Of a stretch of 64,000 nt of DNA, positions 24,945-38,271 are shown piece after piece. Location of the stretch: assembly GCA_937927975.1 (NCBI GenBank), contig CALEZT010000010.1, positions 1 to 64,000 of the forward strand. The letters are read 5' to 3'. Source of the DNA: an uncultured Phycisphaerales bacterium (GTDB lineage: Bacteria; Planctomycetota; Phycisphaerae; Sedimentisphaerales; Anaerobacaceae). The translations under genes were made by a program, and so were the position numbers. Every line of letters starts with the position of its first letter. Within the stretch, counting starts at the first letter, position 1. The notes beneath the pieces are model-generated. The model was not told the origin of the DNA and did no database searches. It saw only the letters and a program-made list of their open reading frames with translations.

Positions 24945-25952
24945 CTATTGGTTCTGAAGGACCTCGATCATGGCGGCGATGTTCTCGGGTCTGGCGTCGC
25001 CGGGGATGTCGTGGGAAGGCGAGGCGATGTAGCCGCCATCGGCGCCGACGACGTCGATCAGTCGGCGGACCTCGTCGCGGACTTGGACAGCCGTCCCGAA
25101 CGGAAGCGTCCGCTGGATGCTGATGCCGCCGTAGAAGGTCAATTCGGAGCCATACTGTTTCTTAATCTCGAACACATCCATCACCTCCGGCTGAAAGGGG
25201 TTGAAGATGTCCAGCCCGCACTCGATCAGGTCGGGGAACAGCTCGTCCACCTTGCCGCAACAGTGCAGCATGACGAGCTTGCCCTTGGACTTGACGAGTT
25301 CGCACATCCGCCGGAATCGCGGCTTGATGAACTCCCGCCAGAGCGACGGACCCATCAGAACGCCCCGCTGGTGGCCCCAGTCGTCGCCGAACCGGAAGAT
25401 GTCCACGGGATTCGTGCAGGCGTTCTCGATGACCGCCAGGTTGAATTCGAGAATGCGATCGAGCAGCGCGTTGGCGAACGGCTTGTCGGAGACCATCGCC
25501 ATCAGGACGGCCTCCATGCCGGCCAGGGTCCAGGCCCGCTCGAAGAGCGAAAACCCCAGGCTGACCAGCACTGCGGTATCGCCGTTGGGACCGATCGCCT
25601 TGTCGAAGGAACTGTACCGTGCGGGGTCGTTCGGGTCGGGAAAGGGCAGACTGCGAACGTTCTCCGGCGTGATAAGCCGGTTGCAGACCACGCCAATGTC
25701 TTTGTCCACGTGCCGATCCCACCGAACGCCGAATTCGTCGGCCCAGATGTCGGGGACCACTTCGACGAAGCGTGCGTCAGGCAGGTGCGGCCGGAGCCAG
25801 GTGAAGCAGTTGCCCAGGCGAGAGTCGAATGCGGGATCGCCGAAGTGAGCGACCATCTTCGCGCGGGCGGGCTGCGTGAACCGAATGTCGTAAGGGACCT
25901 TATCGGGCGACCGATGTCCCACCGCGGCCAACACACGCTCTCGATTCGTCAC
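24945..25952 (-). CDS. Uroporphyrinogen decarboxylase family (MtaA-like) protein
   Basis: A 335-residue TIM-barrel protein of the URO-D superfamily, closer to zinc-dependent methylcobamide:thiol methyltransferases than to heme-pathway HemE. It has MLHCCGKV (the H-x-C zinc-ligand motif) at about residue 240 and the FRFGDDWGHQRGVLM block. These enzymes move methyl groups between corrinoid proteins and thiols or tetrahydrofolate. No corrinoid-binding (DxHxxG) protein or substrate-specific methyltransferase is in the window, so the substrate is unknown. GTG 25952 is chosen, with AAGGA 7 bases upstream; another GTG lies two codons earlier. Confidence 0.83.
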   Translation of the reverse strand: MTNRERVLAAVGHRSPDKVPYDIRFTQPARAKMVAHFGDPAFDSRLGNCFTWLRPHLPDARFVEVVPDIWADEFGVRWDRHVDKDIGVVCNRLITPENVRSLPFPDPNDPARYSSFDKAIGPNGDTAVLVSLGFSLFERAWTLAGMEAVLMAMVSDKPFANALLDRILEFNLAVIENACTNPVDIFRFGDDWGHQRGVLMGPSLWREFIKPRFRRMCELVKSKGKLVMLHCCGKVDELFPDLIECGLDIFNPFQPEVMDVFEIKKQYGSELTFYGGISIQRTLPFGTAVQVRDEVRRLIDVVGADGGYIASPSHDIPGDARPENIAAMIEVLQNQ

Positions 25953-25989
25953 ATCCACATCCTTCCAACTCGACCTGTGCCAATTGACG

Positions 25990-26754
25990 TCACGGCTTGC
26001 ACGACTTGCAGGGCCGCTTGCCGCTCTGGACGGCTTCTTCCCGGGTCTTGTAGCCGAGCCGGTTGTCGCCGGAGATATTCTGAGCCCATCGGCAGTCCGG
26101 CCGATGGAACACGTCGCTGCTCTTGGACGCGACGAACGGATAGGCCGATTCAGACTGGGCAACCTGCGGACCTGGCGGCGAATCCACGGCTCCCTTTGCA
26201 GCCGAATCCTTTCCGGCGTCCTTGGTCCCGTCCGGCAGACTGCGAGCGGCCTTTCGGGCCTCGATGAAGACATCCGTCTGAACAAGCACAGCCGTGCGGA
26301 TCGCATCGCCCGCCTTGAGCCTGGCGGCGACCGCCATCACCGGCCGAATCCGCCAGGCCTCCACCTGGATCCGTCGATTGCCCTGGCCGGGCACCATCAC
26401 AAGCCGGCACAACGCCGTCTGCACACGATACACGTACTGGTCGGAGCCTGGCACTTCGACGCCTTCGATGTGCACGAGCAGCCTTTGCGTCGATTCCGAG
26501 TTCTCCTCGACCGGCGCGATCCCGGCCTCGCGAAGCTTCTGCGAAATCTGGGCCTTGAGCATCGTCGCGTTGATCAACCCTTCGACGCCCGGGGTTTCCC
26601 GCGTCGCCAGAACCACCGCGACCCTATCGACGTCCGCCAGGACCGGATCGCCGGCAATCAACAGCGGAGTCTCGTCGACCGCACGGGATGCCTCGGAGGT
26701 CCCGCCCAGAGACGCCGCGACGAGGAACGCCATGAAACACGCATGGATCGCCAT
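25990..26754 (-). CDS. Exported protein with C-terminal Ada-like zinc-binding motif
   Basis: A 254-residue protein: a signal peptide (residues 1-24), a central region of about 150 residues with no recognised domain, then a short linker. The C-terminus (VASKSSDVFHRPDCRWAQ, ending GKRPCKSCKP) matches the small metal-binding fold found at the N-terminus of Ada, with His, Cys and a terminal CxxC. In Ada that domain repairs methylphosphotriesters; here it is on an exported protein, so DNA repair is unlikely and zinc binding or surface anchoring is more plausible. GGGAGAGAG precedes the ATG at 26754. Confidence 0.72.
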   Translation of the reverse strand: MAIHACFMAFLVAASLGGTSEASRAVDETPLLIAGDPVLADVDRVAVVLATRETPGVEGLINATMLKAQISQKLREAGIAPVEENSESTQRLLVHIEGVEVPGSDQYVYRVQTALCRLVMVPGQGNRRIQVEAWRIRPVMAVAARLKAGDAIRTAVLVQTDVFIEARKAARSLPDGTKDAGKDSAAKGAVDSPPGPQVAQSESAYPFVASKSSDVFHRPDCRWAQNISGDNRLGYKTREEAVQSGKRPCKSCKP

Positions 26755-26822
26755 ACTCTCTCCCTTCCCTTGCGTCTGTTCAGAATGCCGTCCACCCGCG
26801 CCGTTGCCGGATAGCCCCTCTG

Positions 26823-27791
26823 TCACGTCCCGGCGAGCGATTTCTCCACAGCGTTCTTCATCTTCGCCAGGCCGGTCCGTGCGACCTCCATCGCGTCCTT
26901 CTCCCAGTACTTCTGGCTGAACAATTCCAGCGAAAGAACCGCGCGACTGCCGTTCTCGCGGAGCCAGCGGAGGATCTGCGGCAGCGGAGCGACGCCGTCG
27001 CCGGGCATGACGCGATCCCGGTCGGCAAGTCTCTCACGCGGCGGATCGGCGGGGTAATCATTCATGTGCATCACAGGCATGGCCGCGCCGCTGATCGTCT
27101 TGAGGCCCGCGAAATCCGAACCGCCTCTGTAGATGTGATACACGTCGCCGACAAAGCAGGCCTTGGGATGGCCGCTCTCGACGAGCACGAACGCGCACTG
27201 CCCGAGCCGATGCAGGTTCTTGGACGGGCCCCATAACTCGAGTCCCGGCGTGACGCCCATCTTGTCGCCGAGTTCCAGGAAAGCCCGGTACCGCTCGGCC
27301 ACCTTCGCCAGATCGAGGATGGGGGCGTCGTTGCCGTTGGCGCCGACCGGAGGGGCGGCGATCCGCTTGCCGCCGATCTGCGCGAGCAGATCCATCTCGC
27401 GCTTGGCCTGCTCCAGGGCGTCCGCCCGCCGGGCGTCGTCGTCCACGATCCACGGCGTGAACGAGATCGCCCCTTCCACGGTCAGGCCGTGGTCCTCGAT
27501 TCGCTTGCGGACGTCCGCGAGCTTGCCGCCGGCCTTCATATACTCCTGGATCGTCGAGACCCAGGGCTCGATCGCGTCGTAGCCCGCCTGGGCGGCGACG
27601 TCGATCTCCTTCTCCAGGCCCAGTTTCTGGCCGCGAATCGTGCTGGTGTTCAGACTGTACCGAAAAGGCCCGCCCTTGCCCATATCGGAGTTCGCGCCGA
27701 CCGCGCGCGAACGGTCTGCCAGCCACATCGCGCCCAGAGCCGCTCCTGACGCCGCGACAAAACCTCGCCGAGATAATCCATCCTGCTTCAT
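26823..27791 (-). CDS. Exported sugar phosphate isomerase/epimerase (TIM barrel)
   Basis: A 322-residue protein with a twin-arginine signal (SRRGFVAASGAAL at residues 7-19) and a xylose-isomerase-like TIM barrel (AP endonuclease 2 superfamily). Visible features: AAQAGYDAIEPW, GLTVEGAISF, PGLELWGPS, VMHMNDYPAD and the terminal LSLELFSQKYW, which supply the Glu/His/Asp metal ligands expected for the fold. The substrate is unknown; planctomycetes carry many paralogues near carbohydrate genes. It is 9 bp downstream of the phosphomannomutase gene on the same strand. Confidence 0.85.
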   Translation of the reverse strand: MKQDGLSRRGFVAASGAALGAMWLADRSRAVGANSDMGKGGPFRYSLNTSTIRGQKLGLEKEIDVAAQAGYDAIEPWVSTIQEYMKAGGKLADVRKRIEDHGLTVEGAISFTPWIVDDDARRADALEQAKREMDLLAQIGGKRIAAPPVGANGNDAPILDLAKVAERYRAFLELGDKMGVTPGLELWGPSKNLHRLGQCAFVLVESGHPKACFVGDVYHIYRGGSDFAGLKTISGAAMPVMHMNDYPADPPRERLADRDRVMPGDGVAPLPQILRWLRENGSRAVLSLELFSQKYWEKDAMEVARTGLAKMKNAVEKSLAGT

Positions 27792-27800
27792 GTCCTTCTC

Positions 27801-29171
27801 CTACTCAGGCGTTCCCAACTGCTGCTCGATTTCCTTGAATTTCTCGTTCAGCAAGTCCTTCGTCTTGGCCTCGACGTTCAGCCGCAACAGCGGTTCGGTG
27901 TTGCTCGGCCGGCAGTTGAACCACCAGTCCTTGAAGTCCACGGTGACGCCGTCGAGATGGTCGACCTTGCCGTCTCCGTAGCGACGGGCCAGCTCCTCCA
28001 TCCGCACTTCCTTGTTGTCCACCTTGAAGTTGACCTCGCCGCTGCTGTGATACCGTCGCAGGGGCTTGATCAGTTCGCTGACCGGTTTGCCCTTCTGGTC
28101 GATGACGTTGAGCGTGTGCATCAGCATGATCGCGGCCGAGTCGGCGTAGAAATTCTGCTCGAAGTAGAAGTGACCGGACAGTTCGCCGCCGAAGATCGCG
28201 TGCGTGTCGCGCATCGCCTTCTTCATGTAAGAGTGCCCGACGCGCTCCCGCCGAGGCGTCCCGCCGCACCGAATGATCTCTTCCATCACGACCCGACTGC
28301 TCCGCAGGTCGTACACGACAGCGGACCGAGGCTTCTTCTCAAGGAAGTACGGCACCAGCAGCGCGGTGATCAGGTCGCAGGGGATGGTGTCGCCGTTCTC
28401 ATCGACCATGATCATGCGGTCGGCGTCGCCGTCGAAGCAGATGCCTAGGGCGCAATTCTCTTTCTTGACCGTGCTCTTGAGCTGGGCCAGGTTCTTTTCC
28501 TTCAGCGGATCGGGGTCGTGCTTGAACTTCCCGGCGTGTTCGAAGTTGATCTGGATCACCTCGATCGGGACATCGCCCAGGAGAACGGGAATGGCCTTGC
28601 CTGCCATGCCGTTGGAGGCGTCGATGGCCACCTTTTTCTTCTTGAGACTGGGGCTGAGGAACTGCAGAACGTGCTTCTTGTATTCGGGCCAGAGATCCCG
28701 CTGCTCGTACCGACCGGTAGGGTTGCCCTTGGTGTGGGGCAACTGGAGGGCCATGTGTTTGATCTCCTTGAGACCGGTATCGACGCCGATGGGAATCGCC
28801 CCCCGCCCCGCGATCTTGAAACCGTTGTACTTCGCGGGGTTGTGCGAGGCGGTGACCTGGATGCCGCCGCAGGTGCCCAGGTGGTTGATCGCGAAGTAGA
28901 TCTGAGGCGTGTCGATCAGTCCGATGTCGATCACGCCGACGCCGGCCGACCGAATGCCTTCGATCAACGCCTGGGCCAGCGGCTCGCTGTGGGTCCGCAT
29001 ATCCCGGCTGACCACCAGAGACTGGGCCTCGCGCAGGCCCCGCTCGTACCCCTTGATCAGCGAGGGCAGGAACCGGGCGGTCGCCTGCCCGATCTTCCAG
29101 GCGTCTTCCTCGTTGAAATCATCCGCGTATACCCCCCGGATGTCATAGGCTTTGAAAATCTCCGGATTCAT
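27801..29171 (-). CDS. manB: Phosphomannomutase/phosphoglucomutase
   Basis: A 456-residue cytosolic enzyme of the alpha-D-phosphohexomutase family (ManB/AlgC type) that interconverts mannose or glucose 6- and 1-phosphates for glycan precursor synthesis. All four motifs are intact: the phosphoserine loop TASHNPAKYNG (Ser109), the Mg2+ loop DGDADR (247-252), the sugar-binding GGELSGHFYF and the phosphate-binding RPSNTEPLLR. The start at 29171 has AAGGAG 8 bases upstream; a GTG three codons earlier overlaps that site and is less likely. It is the first gene after a strong promoter and may carry the downstream isomerase gene. Confidence 0.92.
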   Translation of the reverse strand: MNPEIFKAYDIRGVYADDFNEEDAWKIGQATARFLPSLIKGYERGLREAQSLVVSRDMRTHSEPLAQALIEGIRSAGVGVIDIGLIDTPQIYFAINHLGTCGGIQVTASHNPAKYNGFKIAGRGAIPIGVDTGLKEIKHMALQLPHTKGNPTGRYEQRDLWPEYKKHVLQFLSPSLKKKKVAIDASNGMAGKAIPVLLGDVPIEVIQINFEHAGKFKHDPDPLKEKNLAQLKSTVKKENCALGICFDGDADRMIMVDENGDTIPCDLITALLVPYFLEKKPRSAVVYDLRSSRVVMEEIIRCGGTPRRERVGHSYMKKAMRDTHAIFGGELSGHFYFEQNFYADSAAIMLMHTLNVIDQKGKPVSELIKPLRRYHSSGEVNFKVDNKEVRMEELARRYGDGKVDHLDGVTVDFKDWWFNCRPSNTEPLLRLNVEAKTKDLLNEKFKEIEQQLGTPE

Positions 29172-29219
29172 AGAAATCACTCCTTCGGTCCGTCAAATCG
29201 ATAACATCAAAGCTGATTT

Positions 29220-29247
29220 ACTATACCGCGAGTCTCCAAGGTGTCAA
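29220..29247 (-). promoter_or_regulatory. Strong sigma70-type promoter for the phosphomannomutase gene
   Basis: Minus strand TTGACA (29247-29242), 16 bp, TATAGT (29225-29220), about 45 bp before the ATG at 29171. It is back-to-back with the plus-strand promoter at 29263. Confidence 0.65.
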
Positions 29248-29262
29248 TTGTGCAATCCTTGC

Positions 29263-29291
29263 TTGCAAGCTCCGACTGCACAGGGTAGGAT
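29263..29291 (+). promoter_or_regulatory. Putative sigma70 promoter for the exported UGA-interrupted gene
   Basis: TTGCAA (29263-29268), 17 bp, TAGGAT (29286-29291). The resulting leader of about 80 bases contains the hairpin at 29301-29323. Confidence 0.6.
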
Positions 29292-29300
29292 TGGGCATGG

Positions 29301-29323
29301 TCCGGTTTCTCGTTGAAACCGGG
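29301..29323 (+). promoter_or_regulatory. Hairpin in the 5' leader
   Basis: CCGGTTTC (29302-29309) pairs perfectly with GAAACCGG (29315-29322) over a TCGTT loop. It begins about 10 bases after the -10 box, so it would lie at the very 5' end of the transcript or serve as an operator. There is no U-tract, so it is not a terminator. Confidence 0.5.
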
Positions 29324-29376
29324 CCCTAAACGGGTTGTTCGCCCTGTGCGACAGCCGATGAAAAGCGAGGTGAAGC

Positions 29377-30708
29377 ATGAAGAAAGCATGGATTCCTGTT
29401 TTGTGGCTGGCGATTCTGGTGGCCGCAGGCCCTGCGACCGGTCTGTTCTGGAGCCAATCCTCCGCGACCGCGGCCGAACCAGGCCAATCGCCCGAGACGG
29501 TCGTGTTCGATCTGAAATACCGGCCGCTGACGGGGCAGAACGACCCGCTGAACTACCGGTCGTTCTGGGGATTCGGCAACTCCCCCCCGAAGAACGTCCC
29601 CTTCGTCGACGCGGTCAAGAAGTTGGCGAAGGACTGCGACGAGGTCTTCAACGGCGCGTTGCCGAAGGCCCAGCAGTGGTCGGTGATCGAGCTCAAGGAC
29701 AAGAAGCCTGTCGCCTGGTACTTCGACCTCAACGCAGACGGCAAGCTCTCGGACGAAGAGCGAATCCTGCCCGGGCCGGCGGCCAGCCCGCAAATGGGCG
29801 GCTATCAGTTTGGATTTGTCACTCCGGACTTCACGATCCAGGGACAGAACGGCAAGGAAATTCCCTTCCGGGTCATGCTGGTCGCCGATTCGTTCGGAGG
29901 CGATCGAATGAACTACATGTGGAGCCCGAGTTGCGTCCTGGAAGGCCAGGCGACCTTCGAGGGCGAATCGATGCGTTTGTTCCTCTACGCCAATGGATTC
30001 AGCGGCTCGTTCAGCAGCTTCGGCTCGTGCAATTCCGTCATGCTCCCGGTCTCACAGGCGTTGGAGGGGTATATCCCGCGGGACACGCTGAGCACCCTGA
30101 TCTGCCGCGACGGAAAGTACTATAAGCTCGCGATCGAGGGCTCGCATGAGAAGGACAAAACCCTCCAGGTCACGATCCAGAAGGACACGTCTCCCACCGG
30201 CAAGACCGCCTTGAGTCTCAAAGGCAAGGAGTCTCTCAAGACCCGCCTGACGCGCGCACGGATCGCAGGGGCCGAGGACAAGACGATCCAGTTCAACACG
30301 AACAACGCCCAGATCGTGATCCCGATCGGTCGCTACAAGCTCAATTCCGGCAGCATCTGCTACGGCGTCGAGAGCGACGACGAGTGGCAGGTCAACTTCG
30401 ACAATGGGCCGACCTTCGCGGTCGCGGAGAACGAGACCACCTCCGTCGAGCTAGGCGAAATGGCCCTGACCGTCAAGGCGGTCGACGAGCAGAAACGCTA
30501 CAACAGCGACGTGAAGGAGAACGCCACCTTCGCCAAGGGCACATCGCTCTACGTGTCCCTGGAGATCAAGGGCAAGGCCGGCGAGGTCTACACGCGGTTC
30601 TCGCAAAAGACGACATCGGGCAATCAGTGGACTCCCGTCAAGCCCCACCTGACGATTCTGGACGACAAGGGAAAACAGGTGGCTTCGGCCGACCTGGAGT
30701 ATGGCTGA
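29377..30708 (+). CDS. Exported protein of unknown family, interrupted by an in-frame UGA
   Basis: Up to the first stop the product has 443 residues. It begins with a signal peptide (residues 1-33, MKKAWIPVLWLAILVAAG), followed by beta-rich sequence. Features: FDLNADGKLSDEERILPG (an EF-hand/dockerin-like calcium loop near residue 115), a paired-Cys region (SPSC, FGSC), and a C-terminal beta domain that stops abruptly at LEYG. The TGA at 30706-30708 is followed in frame by 42 more codons of good sequence ending in TAA at 30837. The true product is therefore probably longer, by recoding, or the base is an error. I do not recognise the family. GAGGTGAAGC precedes the ATG. Confidence 0.75.
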   Translation: MKKAWIPVLWLAILVAAGPATGLFWSQSSATAAEPGQSPETVVFDLKYRPLTGQNDPLNYRSFWGFGNSPPKNVPFVDAVKKLAKDCDEVFNGALPKAQQWSVIELKDKKPVAWYFDLNADGKLSDEERILPGPAASPQMGGYQFGFVTPDFTIQGQNGKEIPFRVMLVADSFGGDRMNYMWSPSCVLEGQATFEGESMRLFLYANGFSGSFSSFGSCNSVMLPVSQALEGYIPRDTLSTLICRDGKYYKLAIEGSHEKDKTLQVTIQKDTSPTGKTALSLKGKESLKTRLTRARIAGAEDKTIQFNTNNAQIVIPIGRYKLNSGSICYGVESDDEWQVNFDNGPTFAVAENETTSVELGEMALTVKAVDEQKRYNSDVKENATFAKGTSLYVSLEIKGKAGEVYTRFSQKTTSGNQWTPVKPHLTILDDKGKQVASADLEYG

Positions 30709-30837
30709 GGCGGTCGCTGCGGGTTCTCGTGGCGAGGACCAGAAGTCAAGACCGGCAAGTACGCGGTCGTCATGACTCAGGAAACCGGCTCCTTCGGCGG
30801 CAAGGTCGAAGGCAAGCTGGAGTTGACGATCGAGTAA
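30706..30837 (+). other. In-frame extension beyond UGA; candidate selenocysteine site
   Basis: Read straight through, with UGA as X, the frame continues LEYG-X-GGRCGFSW, then about 34 residues that complete a beta domain (GKYAVVMTQETGSFGGK, GKLELTIE) and end in TAA. X lies four residues before a Cys, giving X-x-x-x-C... or, if X is Cys-like, a C-G-G-R-C motif. TGA is used as an ordinary stop elsewhere in the window (for example in ATGA overlaps at 2369 and 24157), so the code is not globally altered. Options are Sec insertion, a recent nonsense mutation or an assembly error. Confidence 0.55.
30712..30740 (+). promoter_or_regulatory. bSECIS-like hairpin just after the UGA
   Basis: CGCUGC (30715-30720) pairs with GUGGCG (30729-30734), six pairs including two G-U, over a loop starting GGG. 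GGU (30712-30714) can pair with ACC (30738-30740) across a 3-base bulge. The apical loop begins 12-14 bases after the UGA and has G in its first positions, as in bacterial SECIS elements, though the distance is a little short of the usual range. Confidence 0.4.
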
Positions 30838-30866
30838 ACCCAGCATCCAGGCAGCACGCAATTCTC

Positions 30867-30904
30867 CACGCCCCGGCCTCTCTGACAAAAGAGGTCGGGG
30901 CGTG
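30867..30904 (+). terminator. Rho-independent terminator
   Basis: A 15-bp stem with one G-U pair (30867-30881 with 30890-30904) over an 8-base loop, then TCTGTTCTCTC. It lies 29 bp after the TAA at 30837, not after the TGA at 30708, which fits the longer reading of the gene. Confidence 0.82.
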
Positions 30905-31127
30905 TCTGTTCTCTCTGGTCGTCGATCGCCGACGTGTATCGCCTGCCGCAGCGTTGGCCGCACTTGCGGAAACAGGGCGACCATGGTATTCGTGATGGCA
31001 TGACACGAGAGATCCGCTCAGACAAGACGCAGAGCGAGAATCCGTCGAGCGGTTCCTATGCGGACTGGCTTCGTTCTCCGCGGAACTGCCCGTCGGGTGC
31101 TATCCGGACCCGGAGGGGGACAGAAGC

Positions 31128-31817
31128 GTGCACATCGAGGACGGCCGCCACCCGCTGATCCTGACGCCGGACGCGGCGCCCGACAGCATCCACCTGAGTT
31201 CGGGCGCCCGCATGTGGGTCGTCACCGGGCCCAACGCCGCAGGCAAGAGCACGTTCGTGCGGATGCTGGGCGTCAACGTGTTGCTGGCCCAGATCGGCGC
31301 TGCGGTTCCAGCCCAACGGATGAGGTGGTCGCCCGTCCGATTGATCACGGACGTCCGCGTCCGCGACGACTTGGCCCGCCACGAGAGCTACTTCCTTTCG
31401 GAGGTCCGTCGGCTCCGACGGCTGGTTCTGGACGCCGATCTGAGCACCCCCATGCTGGGACTCATCGACGAGCCCTTCCGCGGCACCAACTCCCTGGAAC
31501 GCACCGCCGCGGGCGTCGCCCTGCTGGAACACCTCATGGCCTCGCCAAATCTGTCCGTGATCGCCACCCATGAGGAGGTGCTTGCCCGGACGGCAGCCGG
31601 CGTATCGTCGGCCGCAAACTACCATTTCCAGGAACGCCTGCACGACGGGGGCATCGAGTTCGACTATCTCCTGCGCCCCGGCCCGGCCGGCACGAAGACC
31701 GCGATCTGCATCCTCGAACGAGAAGGCTACCCGGCGAGCCTGCTAGAGAGAGCCAAAAACCTGGCTCGCCAGCGCAACGACGCCTCTCACGAAGCATCCC
31801 CCGACTTGCTCTTGTAG
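31128..31817 (+). pseudogene. MutS-family ATPase domain, N-terminally truncated
   Basis: The 229 residues are the C-terminal ATPase of a MutS-like protein: GRHPLIL, Walker A GPNAAGKST, the ESYFLSEVRRL signature, Walker B LALIDEP-like MLGLIDEPFRGTNS and the ATHE switch motif. The frame is open back to a TGA at 30993 and the translated stretch 30996-31127 (RFLCGLASFSAELPVG and following) is also family-like, but it holds no usual start codon; GTG 31128 after AGGGGGA is the first. The clamp, lever and any N-terminal membrane domains are missing. It is probably a deletion relic rather than a working repair protein. Its 3' end overlaps GH16 by 31 bp. Confidence 0.7.
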
Positions 31818-32584
31818 ACGCGGACGTAGTCGATGAAGTACTTCTGGGGCAGGATGGCGTCGTCGGTGCCCTTTTGGCCGCCCCAGGAGCCGCCGTAGGC
31901 GGCGTTGAGGATCAGGTAGTGCGGCTTGTCGAAAGGCCAGGTGTCGTTGCCTGTCCGCTCATTCTTGAACGTGAAGTACTTCGTTTCGTCCACGAAGAAA
32001 TCGATGTGGTCCTCGAACCACTCGATCGCGTAGACGTGGAAGTTCTTCGAGGGGTCCGCGACCTCGATCCTGTTGCCCTTGTTCGTGCCGATCATGTGGT
32101 TGTAGGCCTTGGTGTGGATGTTCGCGTGGATCACCAGCGGATCGAAGCCAACGTTCTCCATGATGTCGATCTCGCCGCAGTCGGGCCAGCGACGGTGCTC
32201 CGGATTGATCCCGAGCATCCAGATCGCAGGCCACATCCCCTTGCCGGTCGGAAGCTTGGCGCGGACCTCGATGCGCCCGTAGAGCCATTCGGCCTTCCCG
32301 CGGGTTCGCAGGCTGGCGGAGGTGATGGGATGGCCCTCGAAGTTGTCCTTTCGCGTTTCGATGACGAGCATGCCGTCTTCGACGCGGGCGTTCTCCGGCC
32401 GGGCTTTCGTGTAGTATTGCAGTTCCCGGTTGCGGATGAATCCGACCTCCTGGTCCCACTTGTTCGGGTCGGGCAGGCCCGCGACGCTGAATTCATCGGA
32501 CCACACCAACTCCCACTTTGCGAGCGAGGGATTCGCCCCGGCCAGCATCGCAAGCATCGTTGCACAGCAAATCAATCCGGTCAT
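31787..32584 (-). CDS. GH16 endo-beta-glucanase/laminarinase-like hydrolase
   Basis: A 265-residue secreted family GH16 enzyme: signal peptide (residues 1-22), then a beta-jelly-roll domain. The catalytic signature GEIDIMENVG gives nucleophile Glu138, Asp140 and acid/base Glu143; the methionine between them is the beta-bulge form found in laminarinases and agarase/carrageenase-type relatives. WSDEF and MWPAIWMLG are typical. The likely substrate is beta-1,3-glucan or a related marine polysaccharide, not proven. The start is ATG 32584, with AGGGG 7 bases upstream. Its tail overlaps the convergent MutS relic. Confidence 0.9.
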   Translation of the reverse strand: MTGLICCATMLAMLAGANPSLAKWELVWSDEFSVAGLPDPNKWDQEVGFIRNRELQYYTKARPENARVEDGMLVIETRKDNFEGHPITSASLRTRGKAEWLYGRIEVRAKLPTGKGMWPAIWMLGINPEHRRWPDCGEIDIMENVGFDPLVIHANIHTKAYNHMIGTNKGNRIEVADPSKNFHVYAIEWFEDHIDFFVDETKYFTFKNERTGNDTWPFDKPHYLILNAAYGGSWGGQKGTDDAILPQKYFIDYVRVYKSKSGDAS

Positions 32585-32698
32585 AACCACCCCTTTCCGA
32601 ATGTCTCTAAGGCACACCTTGCGGGCACAACGATACCCGATCAGTCCGATTCAGTCCAGGGTAAATCGCGCAAGAGGGAAGCACGAAGACTCAGAAAA

Positions 32699-32800
32699 CC
32701 AAACGACCGAAACGGAGCGTCCGACGGGCGACAGCGTTTCGGTCATTTGGATTTCGAGCTTTGGATTTGTCTCGGATTTCGAGATTCGAATTTCGGGTTT
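32699..32800. repeat. Inverted repeat followed by degenerate GGATTTCGA repeats
   Basis: CCAAACGACCGAAACG (32699-32714) and CGTTTCGGTCATTTGG (32735-32750) are complementary at 15 of 16 positions around a 20-base GC-rich loop. From 32746 follow imperfect copies of GGATTTCGA (TTGGATTTCGAG, TTTGGATTTG, CGGATTTCGAG, CGAATTTCGGG). Much more AT-rich than its surroundings. It fills most of the 223 bp between the GH16 start and the next stop codon. Confidence 0.7.
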
Positions 32801-32807
32801 CTACTGT

Positions 32808-33608
32808 CTACCGGGCGATGTAGATGACGATCCCAACCAGGGCGCAGACTACCGCGGCGCAGACGCCCATCGAGATTCCAAAGACCCACGCGTACCGCTT
32901 GTTGAGCTTGTTGACCACGTACTTGAGATACCGGTCGCTGGTGGCGAAGGTCTTGCTCATCTGCAGGATGCCTTCGGTGTTGCTGACGGTGTTGGTGTTG
33001 AGCCGGTCCAGGGTGTCCTTGAACTTCACGAAGCTCTGGGCCATCTGGACATCGGTGTCGGCGGCCGCCGCCAGCTGATGGTCGATCGAGACCAGGGCCT
33101 CGGTCTGTCGGGCGGTCTCGGTGGGGATCCGCCCGACCACCTCCAGGAACTGCTGATCCTTGGCCGCCGTGCTGTGGAGCTGGTCCAGCAGTTGGGTGGT
33201 GAGTCTCTTCTGGGTCTCCACCGCCGACGGCAGACTCTCCAGAACCTGCGGAAGCTGGCGCACTTTGCCCATCAGCTCCTGGTGCTGGGCGACCTGCTCG
33301 TTGAGATGATCGTTGATCTGCTCGAGCTGGCCGATCAGGCGGTTGAACCCTTCCTGGAGCTTCTCGATGGGCTCGCGTCGCTCCAGCGATACGACAGAAC
33401 CGGATTTCGCAGAGCCGCCTCGTTTGCCAGTGGACGTGCCCCCGAATGCGTCCTCCGCATCCAACGGCATCGTCAGAAGGCCGTCGCCGTCGAGACTGGG
33501 CTCGCAATGCCCTGCCGGCGCATATCGATGCGACCGCAGCCAGTTGCTCGTTCCGCTCAAGATCTCTCGTAGCGTCATTGTCGAAAACCCCTTCACCAGG
33601 AACGCCAT
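32808..33608 (-). CDS. Coiled-coil protein with C-terminal membrane anchor
   Basis: A 266-residue protein of unknown function. Residues 1-75 are low-complexity. A long heptad-patterned helix spans about 80-235 (LQEGFNRLIGQLEQINDHL onward), resembling methyl-accepting-type or BAR-like coiled coils without a known signalling domain. One strong transmembrane segment near 243-264 (WVFGISMGVCAAVVCALVGIV) ends the protein, so the coiled coil is probably cytoplasmic and tail-anchored. GGGAG lies 7 bases before the ATG at 33608; an ATG ten codons downstream is possible. It is a single-gene unit. Confidence 0.7.
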   Translation of the reverse strand: MAFLVKGFSTMTLREILSGTSNWLRSHRYAPAGHCEPSLDGDGLLTMPLDAEDAFGGTSTGKRGGSAKSGSVVSLERREPIEKLQEGFNRLIGQLEQINDHLNEQVAQHQELMGKVRQLPQVLESLPSAVETQKRLTTQLLDQLHSTAAKDQQFLEVVGRIPTETARQTEALVSIDHQLAAAADTDVQMAQSFVKFKDTLDRLNTNTVSNTEGILQMSKTFATSDRYLKYVVNKLNKRYAWVFGISMGVCAAVVCALVGIVIYIAR

Positions 33609-33905
33609 TCTTCAACTCCCGGCGTACTTTCGCGGCCCACGACAACAGACGATTGCGTTCGTGGTCCCCACGCCGGCATTCGTCGCATCGGACGGCGAGC
33701 CGTTTTCCCTTGAGAGAAACACAGGGACATTCGACAATACGACAGCACCCCTGTTCTTGAGGCTGCTAATGAGGTTCGACTCCAGACGGCGCCCCCGCCC
33801 TGGCCGGAAACCCGCGTTTCCACGCCACTGGGGGCCTGTAAACCGCTCGTCACTATGCCTAATGCGGTCTTTATAGGACAGTTCAATTCAACCGCAGGCC
33901 CGAGC

Positions 33906-33933
33906 TTGAATCCCGCGACGGAGATGCTAGAAT
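33906..33933 (+). promoter_or_regulatory. Putative sigma70 promoter for the FAH gene
   Basis: TTGAAT (33906-33911), 16 bp, TAGAAT (33928-33933), about 44 bp before the GTG at 33978. The rest of the 369-bp gap 33609-33977 shows no gene, repeat or terminator that I can support. Confidence 0.6.
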
Positions 33934-33977
33934 ACGCTCGAAATCCATAATTCCTTAATTTCTGGAGACCTACGAAC

Positions 33978-34925
33978 GTGAAGCTGGCGACGTACATCCT
34001 GGAGGGCAACGTCTCGTGCGGGATTGTGACCGAACGAGGCCTCGTGGACATCCCCTCGTCCTGGAAGAACGCGAACCCGCCGAAGAGCCTCAAGGAAGTC
34101 CTGGATCGGGGCCCGGCCTGCCTTGATCGCATACGAGAGATCGCCCAATCCGCGACGCAGACCACGCCGCCGGACCGCGTCCGATTCCTGGCGCCGATCC
34201 CCCGCCCGGGCAAAATCCTGGCTCTGGCCGGCAATTACAGCGAGCACATCAAGGAAGCCTCGCTCCACCGGGGCTTTCAACTCGGCCTGTCCGACTCGCC
34301 GCGACAGACGACCACGCCGCGACCGTTCCTGATGCCCTCGACCTGCGTCGTCGGCCCGGACGAGACTGTCGCCTGGCCGGTCTACAGCGAGCAGATCGAC
34401 TACGAGTTGGAGCTGGCGGTGGTCATTGGCAGGAACGCCAAGTGCATCACGGCTCAGGACGCGCCGAACCACATCGCCGGATACACCATCGCCAACGATG
34501 TCTCGGCCCGCAGCGTCACCTTCAAGAAGGGCCGCCAGCAGCGTCCATGGGACGAGTTCTACGACTGGCTCAACGGCAAGTGGGCCGACGGCTTCTGCCC
34601 GATGGGCCCCTACCTGGTCACGAAGGACGAGATTCCCGACGTCCAGAACCTCAAGATGGTCCTGAAGGTCAATGACGAAGTGCGTCAGAACGCGAATACA
34701 GCTCAGATGATCTACTCCGTCGCGGACGTCGTCTCGTTCCTGAGCCACCTGATGACCCTGGAACCGGGCGACGTGATCTGCACCGGCACCCCATCCGGCG
34801 TCGGCATGGCCACCGGCAACTTCCTCAAGCCCGGCGACCGAATCGAGTGCAACATCGAGAGCCTGGGGACCTTGACCAACACGCTGGGGGACCGCCCCAC
34901 TGCTTTCTACGAACCCTTGACCTGA
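33978..34925 (+). CDS. Fumarylacetoacetate hydrolase family protein
   Basis: A 315-residue protein of the FAH superfamily, metal-dependent enzymes that hydrolyse or decarboxylate 2-keto acids (fumarylpyruvate, 2-keto-3-deoxy sugar acids and similar). The C-terminal catalytic domain shows ILALAGNYSEHIKE, the metal ligand set in YELELAVVIG with a following IANDVSAR, and GDVICTGTPSGVG. The N-terminal 60 residues form the usual small domain. Family length is normal; the substrate is unknown, but a 2-keto-3-deoxy sugar acid from fucose or rhamnose breakdown would fit the neighbouring hydrolases (inference). GTG start after GGAG. Confidence 0.87.
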   Translation: MKLATYILEGNVSCGIVTERGLVDIPSSWKNANPPKSLKEVLDRGPACLDRIREIAQSATQTTPPDRVRFLAPIPRPGKILALAGNYSEHIKEASLHRGFQLGLSDSPRQTTTPRPFLMPSTCVVGPDETVAWPVYSEQIDYELELAVVIGRNAKCITAQDAPNHIAGYTIANDVSARSVTFKKGRQQRPWDEFYDWLNGKWADGFCPMGPYLVTKDEIPDVQNLKMVLKVNDEVRQNANTAQMIYSVADVVSFLSHLMTLEPGDVICTGTPSGVGMATGNFLKPGDRIECNIESLGTLTNTLGDRPTAFYEPLT

Positions 34926-35404
34926 GTCTCGACGGGTCGCACGTCATCTGAGTGCCATTCGTAGGCACCAACATCGATGCCCTTGCCTTGGGGCCGGGGA
35001 ATACGGTCGCGGTCGAGTTTGGGGGCGTTGATGCTGCTACCGGCGTCGATGGCCGCGGCGTTGGGCAGCAGTCGCAGGTCAAAGCGGGCCGAATCGACGA
35101 ACAGAGCCGCCGGGTCGCGGATCTCCAGGTTGTTCTCCTGGAGCACCCCCGCCGCGTTGCGCAAATCCGTGGCCAGGTTGTTCCGGACGACGCAATCGAC
35201 CGGGGGCATACCGTTCTTGTGCTTGTCAACGCAAATCCACGGCGGACCGGGCCTGCTATCGTTGCGATCGAGGACCGTATTGTTGATCACGAGGCAATTG
35301 CGGGCCCCCATAGCCAGACAAAACAGAACGGCTCTTCCCTTCCTGCCTTCGTCAGGCTGGACAACCGCGGCCGTTGCCTGTAGGATGACCCCGTCTTCTA
35401 TGTC
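34907..35404 (-). pseudogene. C-terminal relic of a beta-helix (pectate-lyase-like) protein
   Basis: The frame encodes the end of a right-handed beta-helix/choice-of-anchor surface protein: RNCLVINNTVLDRND, VVRNNLA and the terminal AAAIDAGSS...DRIPRPQGKGIDVGAYEW that closes such proteins. An ATG at 35311 falls inside the fold; protein-like sequence continues upstream to about 35404, where it meets the GH2 promoter and gene. There is no signal peptide or catalytic part. It is best read as a truncated remnant. Its 3' end overlaps the FAH gene by 19 bp. Confidence 0.65.
35358..35386 (+). promoter_or_regulatory. Putative sigma70 promoter for GH2
   Basis: TGGACA (35358-35363), 17 bp, TAGGAT (35381-35386), about 50 bp before the ATG. 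It lies within the beta-helix relic on the other strand. Confidence 0.55.
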
Positions 35405-35442
35405 ACGAGGAATTGGCTTGTGTGCCCTGAAAGGACGACCCG

Positions 35443-38271
35443 ATGAACCGAGATTACGTAAGAACGCTCAAGACCACGGTCCTCTCCCTACTGCTGCTGT
35501 CCTCCATCACCCTGGCGGCGATCCCGCTGCCGGAGCATCCGCGACCGGATTTCCAGCGGGCCCAGTGGCTGAACCTCAACGGTGCGTGGGAGTTCCGATT
35601 CGACAAGGACAACGCTGGGCTCGACCAGAACTGGGCCGCCGGCAAGACCGAGTTCCCGCTGTCGATCACGGTGCCCTTCCCGTGGGGCTCGAAGCTCTCC
35701 GGCGTCAAGAGCGAAGCGGACATCGCCTGGTATCGAAGGACGATCCAAGTGCCCGCCGAATGGAAAGGGCAGCGCGTGTTCGTCGTGGTCGGGGCCTGCG
35801 ACTGGCTCACGACCGGCTGGCTTGACGGTCAGAAGGTCGGCAGCTTCCAGGGCGGGTACACGCCGTTCGAGTTCGAGCTGACGCCGCACGTGAAGTGGGG
35901 ACAGGATCAACAACTCGTCCTGCGCGTGGACGATACGCCCCACCCCTTCAAGCTCGAGGGCAAGCAAGGCTATGGGCAGGCCAAGGGCATCTGGCAGACG
36001 ATCTACCTCGAAGCCCGGCCCAAGATCGCGTTGGAGACCGTACACTTCGTGCCGGAGATCGACGCCGGGATCGTCACGGTCAAGGCGACGCTCAGCGCAC
36101 CCGCGCCGTCGCCCATGACGTTCGAGATTCACTTCAAGCCCCAGGACCGCTCTCAGGCCGTCGCAAACGCGAAGATCCCCGCGCAGACGAAGGAAGTCAC
36201 GTTCCCGGTTCCCCTGAACTCTGCGAGGCTCTGGTCGCTCGAAGACCCGTATCTCTATGAGGTCAAAGCCGTGCTCTCGGGCGAAGGGGTGCGGGACGCC
36301 GTGGACACCTACTTCGGCATGCGAAAGATCAGCGTGACGAAGCTCCCTGGGTCCGAACACCCCTACATCGCATTGAACAACAAACCCGTCTATCTGAAGC
36401 TGTCCCTCGACCAGGCCTATCATCCCGACGGCTTCTACACCTTCCCGAGCGATGCCTTCATGCGGGATGAGATCCTGCGCTCTCGCCAGATCGGCCTCAA
36501 CGGCCAGCGGATTCACGTCAAGATCGGCATCCCGCGCAAGCTCTACTGGGCGGACAAGCTGGGCGTCCTGATCATGGCCGACGTGCCCAATAGCTGGGGC
36601 CAGCCCGACGAGGACATGCGTCGCGAGACCGACGTCGCCCTGCGCGGCATGATCAAGCGGGACTTCAACCATCCGGCCATCTTCAGTTGGGTGATCTTCA
36701 ACGAAACCTGGGGCCTCCGCACCGGCGACAAGGGCTACATGCCCGAGACGCAGGACTGGGTCGCCTCCATGGTCAAGTTGGCCAAGGGCCTCGACCCCAC
36801 GCGACTCGTCGAGGACAATTCCCCCTGCAACTACGACCACGTCCTGACGGACATCAACACCTGGCATGCCTACCTGCCGGGCTACAAGTGGACCGAGCAC
36901 CTGGCCCAGGTCTGCAAGGACACCTATCCCGGCTCGAAATGGAACTACATCGGTGGCCGCACGCAAGGCAACGAGCCCCTGCTCAACAGCGAGTGCGGCA
37001 ACGTCTGGGGCTACAAGAACAGCACCGGCGACGTCGACTGGAGCTGGGACTATCACCTCATGATGAACGCCTTCCGCCGGCATCCGCAGGTCTGCGGCTG
37101 GCTCTACACCGAGCACCACGACGTGATCAACGAGTGGAACGGCTACTGGCGGTTCGACCGCTCGCAGAAGTTCACCGGGATCGAGGAACTGATGCCCGGC
37201 ATGAGCCTGCGCGACCTGCACAACGATGTCTACATCGCGATGAACGAGGAACTGTGCCAGGAGGTCAAGCCGGGCCGGCAGGTCCAGGTGCCGCTGTTCG
37301 TGTCGATCCTGACCGATCGCATCGGGAGCCAGGAGTTGACTCTTCGCAGCAGCATGCGGGCCTGGGACAGTCTCGGTCGCGTCCGCAACGTGGCCGCACG
37401 AGGATCGGCAAACGCCACTCGCGGGGGCGGGGCCGGAGCGGGCGTGCGAGTCCCCTGCTCGCCGTGGATGTGCAAGGCGATCGATCCGCTGGAGGTCACG
37501 ATGCCCCAGGAGCCCGCGGTGGTCGTGCTCTCGGTCCAGCTTGAGGATCGGACCGGCGCGGTCGTGGCCCGCAATTTCACGACGTTCAACGTCCGCGACG
37601 GACGCCAGCCACGTGATGAGACCCTCGGCCAGCGTCAGCGACGCACGAGAGTCCTGCGCGTCGCGCCGAAGGACTTCAAGAAATCCGAGTGGTCGGTCAA
37701 ACAGTGGAACGTCTTCGACGGCCTGAAGGTCAACGGCGCCGGCGCGGGGTACTTCGAGTACCAGATCGCCTGGCCGTCGGACCTGAAGGTCCAGGACATC
37801 GCAGCCGCGAGCTTCCGCGCGGAGGTCTCCGCCAAGCAGCTCTTCGGCAAGGATAAGCAAGGCGCCGCCAAGCAGGAAGGCGACTTCATGCGGGGCGAAG
37901 GCACCCACGACCCGAGCCTGAACCCGAACTCCTACCCGATGACGGACGAGCAGACATACCCCGGCGCGGTCCGCGTGCGAATCGGCGGCCAGGTGGTGGG
38001 CACGTTCGAACTGCCCGACGATCCCGCGGATCATCGCGGCATCCTGTCCTGGCACGCGCAGAAACGCGACGACACGTTGACCGAGGCCGGCTCCTATGGC
38101 TACCTGATCTCCGCGGAGATCCCGGCCCAGGTCCTCGATCAGGCGGCCAAGACAGGCACGATCACGCTGCGTCTGGAGGCCGACGAGGCCCTCGCCGGCG
38201 GCCTGGCCATCTACGGCGAGCAGTTCGGCCGCTACCCGCTGGACCCGACGCTGGCGTTCGTGTTGAAATGA
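35443..38271 (+). CDS. GH2 family glycoside hydrolase (beta-galactosidase/glucuronidase-like)
   Basis: A 942-residue exported enzyme. A signal peptide (residues 1-26) precedes the GH2 sugar-binding jelly roll (LNGAWEFRFDKDN...ITVPFPWGSKLSG), an immunoglobulin-like domain (about 205-300) and the TIM barrel. The catalytic pair is present: acid/base Glu421 in FNETWG and nucleophile Glu517 in NSECGN. About 300 further residues form C-terminal beta domains, making it longer than simple GH2 enzymes. Retaining exo-hydrolysis of beta-galactose, glucuronate or mannose is possible; specificity cannot be told from sequence. It starts at ATG 35443, after AAGGACGACCCG. Confidence 0.88.
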   Translation: MNRDYVRTLKTTVLSLLLLSSITLAAIPLPEHPRPDFQRAQWLNLNGAWEFRFDKDNAGLDQNWAAGKTEFPLSITVPFPWGSKLSGVKSEADIAWYRRTIQVPAEWKGQRVFVVVGACDWLTTGWLDGQKVGSFQGGYTPFEFELTPHVKWGQDQQLVLRVDDTPHPFKLEGKQGYGQAKGIWQTIYLEARPKIALETVHFVPEIDAGIVTVKATLSAPAPSPMTFEIHFKPQDRSQAVANAKIPAQTKEVTFPVPLNSARLWSLEDPYLYEVKAVLSGEGVRDAVDTYFGMRKISVTKLPGSEHPYIALNNKPVYLKLSLDQAYHPDGFYTFPSDAFMRDEILRSRQIGLNGQRIHVKIGIPRKLYWADKLGVLIMADVPNSWGQPDEDMRRETDVALRGMIKRDFNHPAIFSWVIFNETWGLRTGDKGYMPETQDWVASMVKLAKGLDPTRLVEDNSPCNYDHVLTDINTWHAYLPGYKWTEHLAQVCKDTYPGSKWNYIGGRTQGNEPLLNSECGNVWGYKNSTGDVDWSWDYHLMMNAFRRHPQVCGWLYTEHHDVINEWNGYWRFDRSQKFTGIEELMPGMSLRDLHNDVYIAMNEELCQEVKPGRQVQVPLFVSILTDRIGSQELTLRSSMRAWDSLGRVRNVAARGSANATRGGGAGAGVRVPCSPWMCKAIDPLEVTMPQEPAVVVLSVQLEDRTGAVVARNFTTFNVRDGRQPRDETLGQRQRRTRVLRVAPKDFKKSEWSVKQWNVFDGLKVNGAGAGYFEYQIAWPSDLKVQDIAAASFRAEVSAKQLFGKDKQGAAKQEGDFMRGEGTHDPSLNPNSYPMTDEQTYPGAVRVRIGGQVVGTFELPDDPADHRGILSWHAQKRDDTLTEAGSYGYLISAEIPAQVLDQAAKTGTITLRLEADEALAGGLAIYGEQFGRYPLDPTLAFVLK

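Follow-up and report, generated by a model that had tools for sequence, protein, structure and literature searches.

Selenoproteins catalogued as products of the SelA/SelB/SelC/SelD system carry an in-frame UGA followed by a hairpin in genomes with sel genes, have a Cys near the selenocysteine (Sec, U) and are related to some proteins that have Cys in place of U. The family described here resembles them in its UGA, hairpin, nearby Cys and Cys homologues, and sel genes are present in the genomes of most relatives of the locus. However, the members found here were overwhelmingly UGA-bearing, and the Cys copies were few and distant, which distinguishes them from the catalogued families. Table 1 of a 2026 inventory lists 119 prokaryotic selenoprotein families and subfamilies (PMC13188914), and the inventory describes most characterised selenoproteins as thioredoxin-like. 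Among the 119 entries of that table there was no U-x3-C or UGGxC family and no Ig/MG2-like family. The DUF1573 (UGC) and UGSC-containing families, compared by their names in the same table, likewise have a Cys close to Sec within a short motif, but the spacing of their motifs is different and their Pfam/NCBIfam models were not matched by the family described here. For planctomycetes, full sel gene sets have been reported in P1 and P2, with an unusual sel cluster in P2 (Kim et al. 2016, PMC4807772); the selenoproteins named in the covered text of that report are FdhA and FmdB, and not the superfamily found here. The deep-Sep authors remarked that a protein lacking Cys homologues may be lost in filtering, and that only one protein of this kind was known before (PMC12013277).

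Here we describe a gene that most likely inserts Sec at an apparent premature stop codon and that belongs to a large, apparently undescribed superfamily of planctomycetes and some relatives, with several copies per genome. The superfamily was not found in the covered parts of PMC12013277, PMC9312934, PMC5029168 and PMC4807772, nor in a literature search over titles and the beginnings of abstracts that covered few subscription-journal papers or preprints; in addition, none of 13 family proteins matched a model in NCBIfam r20. Sec would be inserted by the usual apparatus, and what is new is the unlisted superfamily, its unusual domain and the small number of Cys copies.

The gene and its UGA-bearing relatives

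The window is the whole 64,000-nucleotide stretch of DNA that was analysed. On its forward strand, the frame beginning at ATG 29377 reaches TGA 30706-30708 after 443 amino acids and continues in the same frame for 42 sense codons to TAA 30835-30837; re-reading the frame gave the same body and extension as the initial annotation. The residues at the join are LEYG-U-GGRCGFSWRGPE, beginning LEYG-U-GGRCGFSWR, and the tail peptide is YAVVMTQETGSFGGK. Cys448 lies four residues past U444, so U stands first in a C-x3-C-like motif, in agreement with the earlier placement of this residue as a Cys of C-x-x-x-C. The earlier remark that the terminator follows the TAA and not the TGA also held; the consensus scan behind it found 6 terminator-like sites in the region against 1.9 expected. 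The features are as follows.

29377..30837, + strand: proposed selenoprotein gene with the UGA read through, 486 residues including U444, then TAA (frame; protein-level selection on the tail in relatives)
29377..29475, + strand: hydrophobic N-terminus, residues 1-33, probable export signal (by inspection of the sequence)
29725..29760, + strand: DLNADGKLSDEE, EF-hand-like loop, residues 117-128 (D117, G122 and E128 invariant in 51 sequences)
30706..30708, + strand: UGA, proposed Sec codon, residue 444 (TGA in 13 of 14 named loci and 140 of 151 domain copies)
30709..30834, + strand: tail of 42 codons, predicted to complete the C-terminal beta-sandwich (model; codon-position divergence)
30718..30720, + strand: Cys448 (TGC), partner in U-x3-C (Cys at +4 in 122 of 139 UGA copies)
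30722..30740, + strand: SECIS-like hairpin, 8-bp stem, loop UGG at 30730-30732 (fold; codon-preserving tests; helix counts)
30835..30837, + strand: TAA, true stop (frame)
30867..30904, + strand: terminator-like stem-loop of 15 pairs, 3' of the TAA (consensus scan)

The DLNADGKLSDEE loop is one that we take to resemble an EF-hand. The structure model has low confidence at the N-terminus (pLDDT <50 for residues 1-7 and 16-37). The UGA domain occurs as a single copy within the window, in which an Rfam scan gave no match and a tRNA search found none. The gene neighbours identified by Pfam (window positions 24945-38271) were URO-D, xylose-isomerase-like, phosphomannomutase, MutS domain V, GH16, FAA hydrolase and GH2. 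When 7 genes of the window and 10 genes lying next to main-family members were compared by Pfam, no common partner gene appeared, and neither the neighbour genes nor the fold indicated a substrate.

Of 7999 candidates scored in a protein search with the 486-residue query, 250 were hits. Each of the 120 homologues listed covered at most 91% of the 486 residues, and their C-terminal ends were YG in 117 cases and FG, YT and HF in one case each. The database cluster to which the window protein itself belongs, with 8 members from 3 contigs, also ends at the UGA point. The initial annotation had held that homologues simply ending at LEYG would speak against Sec; the database proteins do end there, but the tail continued in frame wherever the DNA of a member could be read. 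In particular, 14 named loci (L001-L014) came from MAGs of Planctomycetota and Verrucomicrobiota, and the DNA of 13 of them had an aligned TGA and the same in-frame tail. The exception, L012, has GCG (Ala) at the site and no longer carries the Cys at +4, and L014 has three tandem copies with a TGA in each. The recurrence of TGA, tail and hairpin in relatives from both phyla was more than expected by chance. A search with residues 385-486 only returned 14 proteins, all of them UGA-ending ones already found, and no Cys homologue; among viral contigs none of 151 pattern matches was a relative, and plasmids gave no match.

The size of the superfamily was addressed at the DNA level. When the family alignment was compared with 397 genomes of the class to which genome G005 belongs, most matches were partial, covered the last ~90 residues and nearly all contained one TGA. 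A profile of the C-terminal domain gave 83 non-redundant UGA copies in a first locus set; their proteins were mostly about 180-580 residues long, with mechanically assigned starts, their tails were mostly 40-53 residues long, and the true stops past these tails were TAG in 28, TGA in 28 and TAA in 26, with one off the contig. Across all fetched loci, 180 profile matches were reduced to 151 by dropping identical contexts, and the codon at the site was TGA in 140, TGC in 4 and another codon in 7. Thus, other members with UGA at the proposed Sec position, which had been named beforehand as supporting evidence, were found in large number.

The usual motif at the site was [YF]G-U-GGxC. Full context was present for 139 UGA copies, of which 122 had a Cys at +4 and 131 had YG or FG before U; 13 had no Cys from +3 to +5, and U-x3-C is therefore not universal. 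The class of G005 had the domain in 61 of 397 sampled genomes, its phylum in 22 of 343 and the phylum of G009 in 7 of 337, and one TGA was present in 48 of 49 matches listed for the phylum of G005 and in 9 of 9 for that of G009. Because first-look candidates were scored only in part, copies per genome are lower bounds, the most listed being at least 11 (G002). A subtype with about 290 residues past the UGA (L059 5168-8177, L063 7320-8531, L043 1-1437) showed hydrophobic, membrane-like stretches by inspection.

The hairpin and the coding tail

The stem downstream of the UGA pairs 30722-30729 with 30733-30740 (GGTTCTCG-TGG-CGAGGACC), with 8 of 8 pairs formed, one of them G-U. The 61-nt stretch had a folding z of -2.58, and 1 of 200 shuffles was as good. 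The hairpin noted earlier at 30712-30740 is thus real, with a stem that begins 13 nt past the UGA, but its left boundary was drawn too wide and belongs at 30722. In bacterial SECIS elements, the apical loop lies about 16-37 nt from the UGA and a G occurs early in the loop; with its loop 21 nt past the UGA, the family hairpin is within these limits of distance and loop. The spacing was constant in 81 of the 83 copies of the first set: UGA, 13 nt, a stem of up to 8 bp and a three-base loop lying 21 nt past the UGA. The other 2 carry an inserted codon; they were set aside in the pairing tests, for which TG at the loop position defined the 81 standard-spacing copies.

The simple folding z-score was modest across copies (mean -0.76, compared with -0.14 upstream) and a two-sequence DNA alignment was uninformative; since the z-score is weak alone, codon-preserving tests were used. 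In the 81 copies, 569 of 648 stem cells were paired. Shuffling codons for the same residue within each column gave 543.4 +/- 2.8 paired cells (maximum 553 in 2000; 0 of 2000 reached 569), and random synonymous codons, weighted by their pooled frequency in these genes, gave 366 +/- 10 (maximum 395 in 1000; 0 of 1000 reached it), so that the observed pairing stood at z 9 and 19, respectively. The outermost pair was formed in 46 of 81 copies and the innermost in 62. Individual codons followed the same pattern: Arg at codon 9 was CGA in 59 of 70 cases, compared with 156 of 1506 Arg codons upstream in the same genes; each of the 7 copies with Thr at codon 7 had T as the third base of codon 9, which matches the A of the Thr codon; and Val at codon 10 was GTA in 29 copies, GTG in 26 and GTC in none, although GTC is the commonest upstream Val codon (804 of 1951). 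The pair types included TA, CG and GC at one stem position and AT, TA and GC at another. These results demonstrated that the hairpin is kept as RNA by compensatory and synonymous changes, which bears out the relevance that the initial annotation had given it.

With a floating register, an unbroken helix of at least 6 bp was present in 135 of the 139 full-context UGA copies, compared with 25-26% of shuffles; with a fixed register in which whole-codon shifts were allowed, at least 6 of 8 pairs were formed in 118 of 139. A helix of at least 6 bp was also present in 4 of 11 non-UGA copies, so helix presence alone separates the two groups poorly. Some divergent copies without the loop Trp codon keep the stem (L094, L102, L129). 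In genome G111 (L094, L102, L108), nine matches are spread over scattered contigs with the motif EYSGGVP, and the stem stays where the loop Trp has become Gly. In L100 (G149:C136), U has been lost (AWCSCVESFSHSWRVP) and 6 of 8 stem pairs are kept, as if the hairpin were a relic.

The tail evolves as protein in the relatives. Divergence at codon positions 1, 2 and 3 was 0.27, 0.20 and 0.48 within the tail and 0.72, 0.72 and 0.72 past the true stop, and the window tail had a dN/dS of 0.14 against L001. In the predicted model, the tail folds into the C-terminal sandwich; the 42 residues would complete an Ig/MG2-like sandwich in which a glycine-rich loop holds U444-x3-C448.

Both structure models were all-beta except for short helices. 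The likeness to MG2 (PF01835; 15.1 and 17.9 bits, gathering cut-off 32.8) and to FlgD_ig (PF13860; 18.3 and 13.9, gathering cut-off 27) was wholly under the Pfam gathering score, and Pfam gave nothing over cut-off for 11 family proteins. To our knowledge, a Sec loop has not been described for MG2 or FlgD Ig-like domains. Sequence searches against solved structures each gave a single match, with E 0.07 and 0.083, neither of them meaningful, and the best Foldseek match for the isolated domain was CopC, at a weak E of 7e-3 and as one of many weak Ig-like matches. Two candidate assignments were rejected. For a thioredoxin-like fold, the models are all-beta apart from the short helices and no thioredoxin-like title stood among the fold-search matches listed. 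The CuA copper site has conserved His and Met ligands beside its C-x3-C loop; the U domain had no invariant or near-invariant His or Met in two alignments (A2 and A4).

Sec genes and Cys homologues

In the genomes of the 14 named loci, tRNA-Sec over cut-off was found in 13, selB in 13, selA in 12 and selD in 11, and ARAGORN identified a tRNA-Sec with anticodon TCA in 12. The gaps were tRNA-Sec in G004, selA with a partial selD in G008, and a partial selD in G013. The nearest genome, G001, had a tRNA-Sec and a partial selB; selA and selD were not found there. Across the 397 genomes, selA was matched in 151 (143 over cut-off), including 51 of the 61 domain-bearing genomes; 5 of the 61 had non-UGA copies only, and G161 and G376 have selA with domain copies that are all non-UGA. 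Importantly, selA was present in 49 of 56 UGA-bearing genomes (one weak match, G308) compared with 102 of 341 others (Fisher p 2e-16), and in 44 of 50 compared with 102 of 341 when six genomes found via the family were left out. A UGA copy lay on the selA contig in 33 of the 49 genomes, at 605-11,126 bases from start to start (read by hand), and in 29 of 44 without the six. The fetched stretches, which were picked for their hits, carried selA, selB, selD, tRNA-Sec and UGA copies in various combinations. Matches to selD in G009:C117, G010:C99 and G014:C205 had one internal TGA and probably represent Sec-containing SelD; one selA match (G362:C353:463-1812) also had one internal TGA.

Ten domain-bearing genomes had no selA match. 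In G089, G340 and G390, which lack selA, there were sense-codon copies only, with Cys at the U position. Cys homologues, which the initial annotation had also named as support for Sec and which were reached only via genome searches and one protein search, were thus found in L091, L092 and L095. The L092 protein of G340 has 25 listed relatives, itself included, and in 24 of them the aligned Cys stands in QSQCC, KSQCC or ESQCC. These Cys copies have no Cys at +4. The 25th relative, P0145, starts at the U site (C-SLSWREP...), probably because the gene call began downstream of a UGA. The L092/L095 protein, from genomes without selA, is the Cys counterpart of the subtype with the ~290-residue tail. 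A few copies without U also occurred in selA-bearing genomes (L012, L085, L088, L090, L097, L100 and L103), and most of them likewise lacked the Cys at +4.

A tRNA-Sec with anticodon TCA was found in G001 and G396, selD in G189 and G396, and partial selB in G001 and G189; no sel gene was found in the fragmented assembly of G265. In G355, G364 and G378, a UGA copy was present, and selA, tRNA-Sec, and selB or selD over cut-off were not found; G355 (5.84 Mb) and G364 (2.27 Mb) are single-contig genomes. The UGA copies of these three genomes have intact hairpins (L154, 9111-9425; L155, 9272-9493; L156, 3453-3704), and the motif in G355 is odd (FRUGNNC). These three genomes might be explained by a recent loss of the Sec system, by sel genes that escaped detection or by a different reading of this UGA.

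Readings of the UGA and a proposed function

The conserved UGA, the coding tail, the hairpin selected as RNA, the linkage to sel genes and the Cys homologues together support the earlier suggestion of a Sec codon, and we consider it very probable that Sec is inserted at UGA 30706-30708. If the UGA were instead a true stop, as gene callers treat it, the 443-residue protein would be complete and the tail untranslated; this is highly improbable, given that the tail is under protein-type selection and conserved in 13 of 14 loci, that it completes the fold in the model, and that homologues with a sense codon (L012 and the Cys relatives) read straight across the site. Leaky reading of UGA is known, and the codon might be read as Trp, Cys or another near-cognate residue, perhaps at low efficiency and giving isoforms with and without the last strands. 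The UGA copies of G355, G364 and G378, where no sel gene was found, still need their codon read; however, UGA copies are otherwise associated with and linked to sel genes, the hairpin is under selection at a fixed SECIS-like distance, and the homologues in selA-less genomes have Cys rather than Trp, so that we regard this reading as very unlikely. A minor truncated product alongside the Sec product is possible. The window copy comes from MAG data, in which a sequencing or assembly error or a pseudogene might be suspected, but the same TGA occurs in many independent contigs and assemblies, and the window tail is constrained relative to L001; the many independent contigs and the protein's own database cluster ending at this point make an assembly error unlikely, and we give this explanation a negligible chance.

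We proposed that the gene product is an exported, beta-rich selenoprotein. The hairpin at 30722-30740 would act as a bacterial SECIS and be bound by SelB, which would bring Sec-tRNA(Sec) to the UGA so that translation continues to TAA 30835. Outside the cytoplasm, U444 and C448 might form a redox (or peroxide or soft-metal) centre that cycles between a selenol/thiol pair and an internal selenenylsulfide; this redox role of U-x3-C is suggested tentatively, at somewhat less than even chances. Alternatively, Sec might be inserted and U serve in metal binding at a copper-type site, and not in redox cycling. The CopC match and the resemblance of an Ig-like sandwich with a C-x3-C-like loop to CuA point in that direction; however, His and Met are not among the invariant or nearly invariant alignment columns and CopC is only one of many weak Ig-like matches, and we consider metal binding improbable.

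Returning to Sec insertion and its wider meaning, we lean towards the view that a Sec-dominated exported superfamily, built on a new Ig/MG2-like selenium module in which the hairpin is encoded by the same codons as the GUGGxC loop, has undergone expansion alongside the sel locus in Phycisphaerae and part of the Verrucomicrobiota and may be a main reason that these bacteria keep the Sec system. Because the genes are routinely annotated as truncated proteins, the selenoproteomes of these bacteria would be strongly undercounted. The discovery of bacterial selenoproteins relies on known families and Cys homologues; with Cys copies few and distant and annotated members stopping at the UGA, this superfamily would escape it; the superfamily also offers a simple pattern to guide re-annotation. 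The superfamily brings in a U-x3-C module that is a beta-sandwich and not thioredoxin-like, carried by proteins that are probably exported, and it is a clear case of an RNA structure and a protein motif sharing codons across many diverged paralogues. It also offers a link, open to testing, from selenium to the outer biology of planctomycetes, about which little is known.
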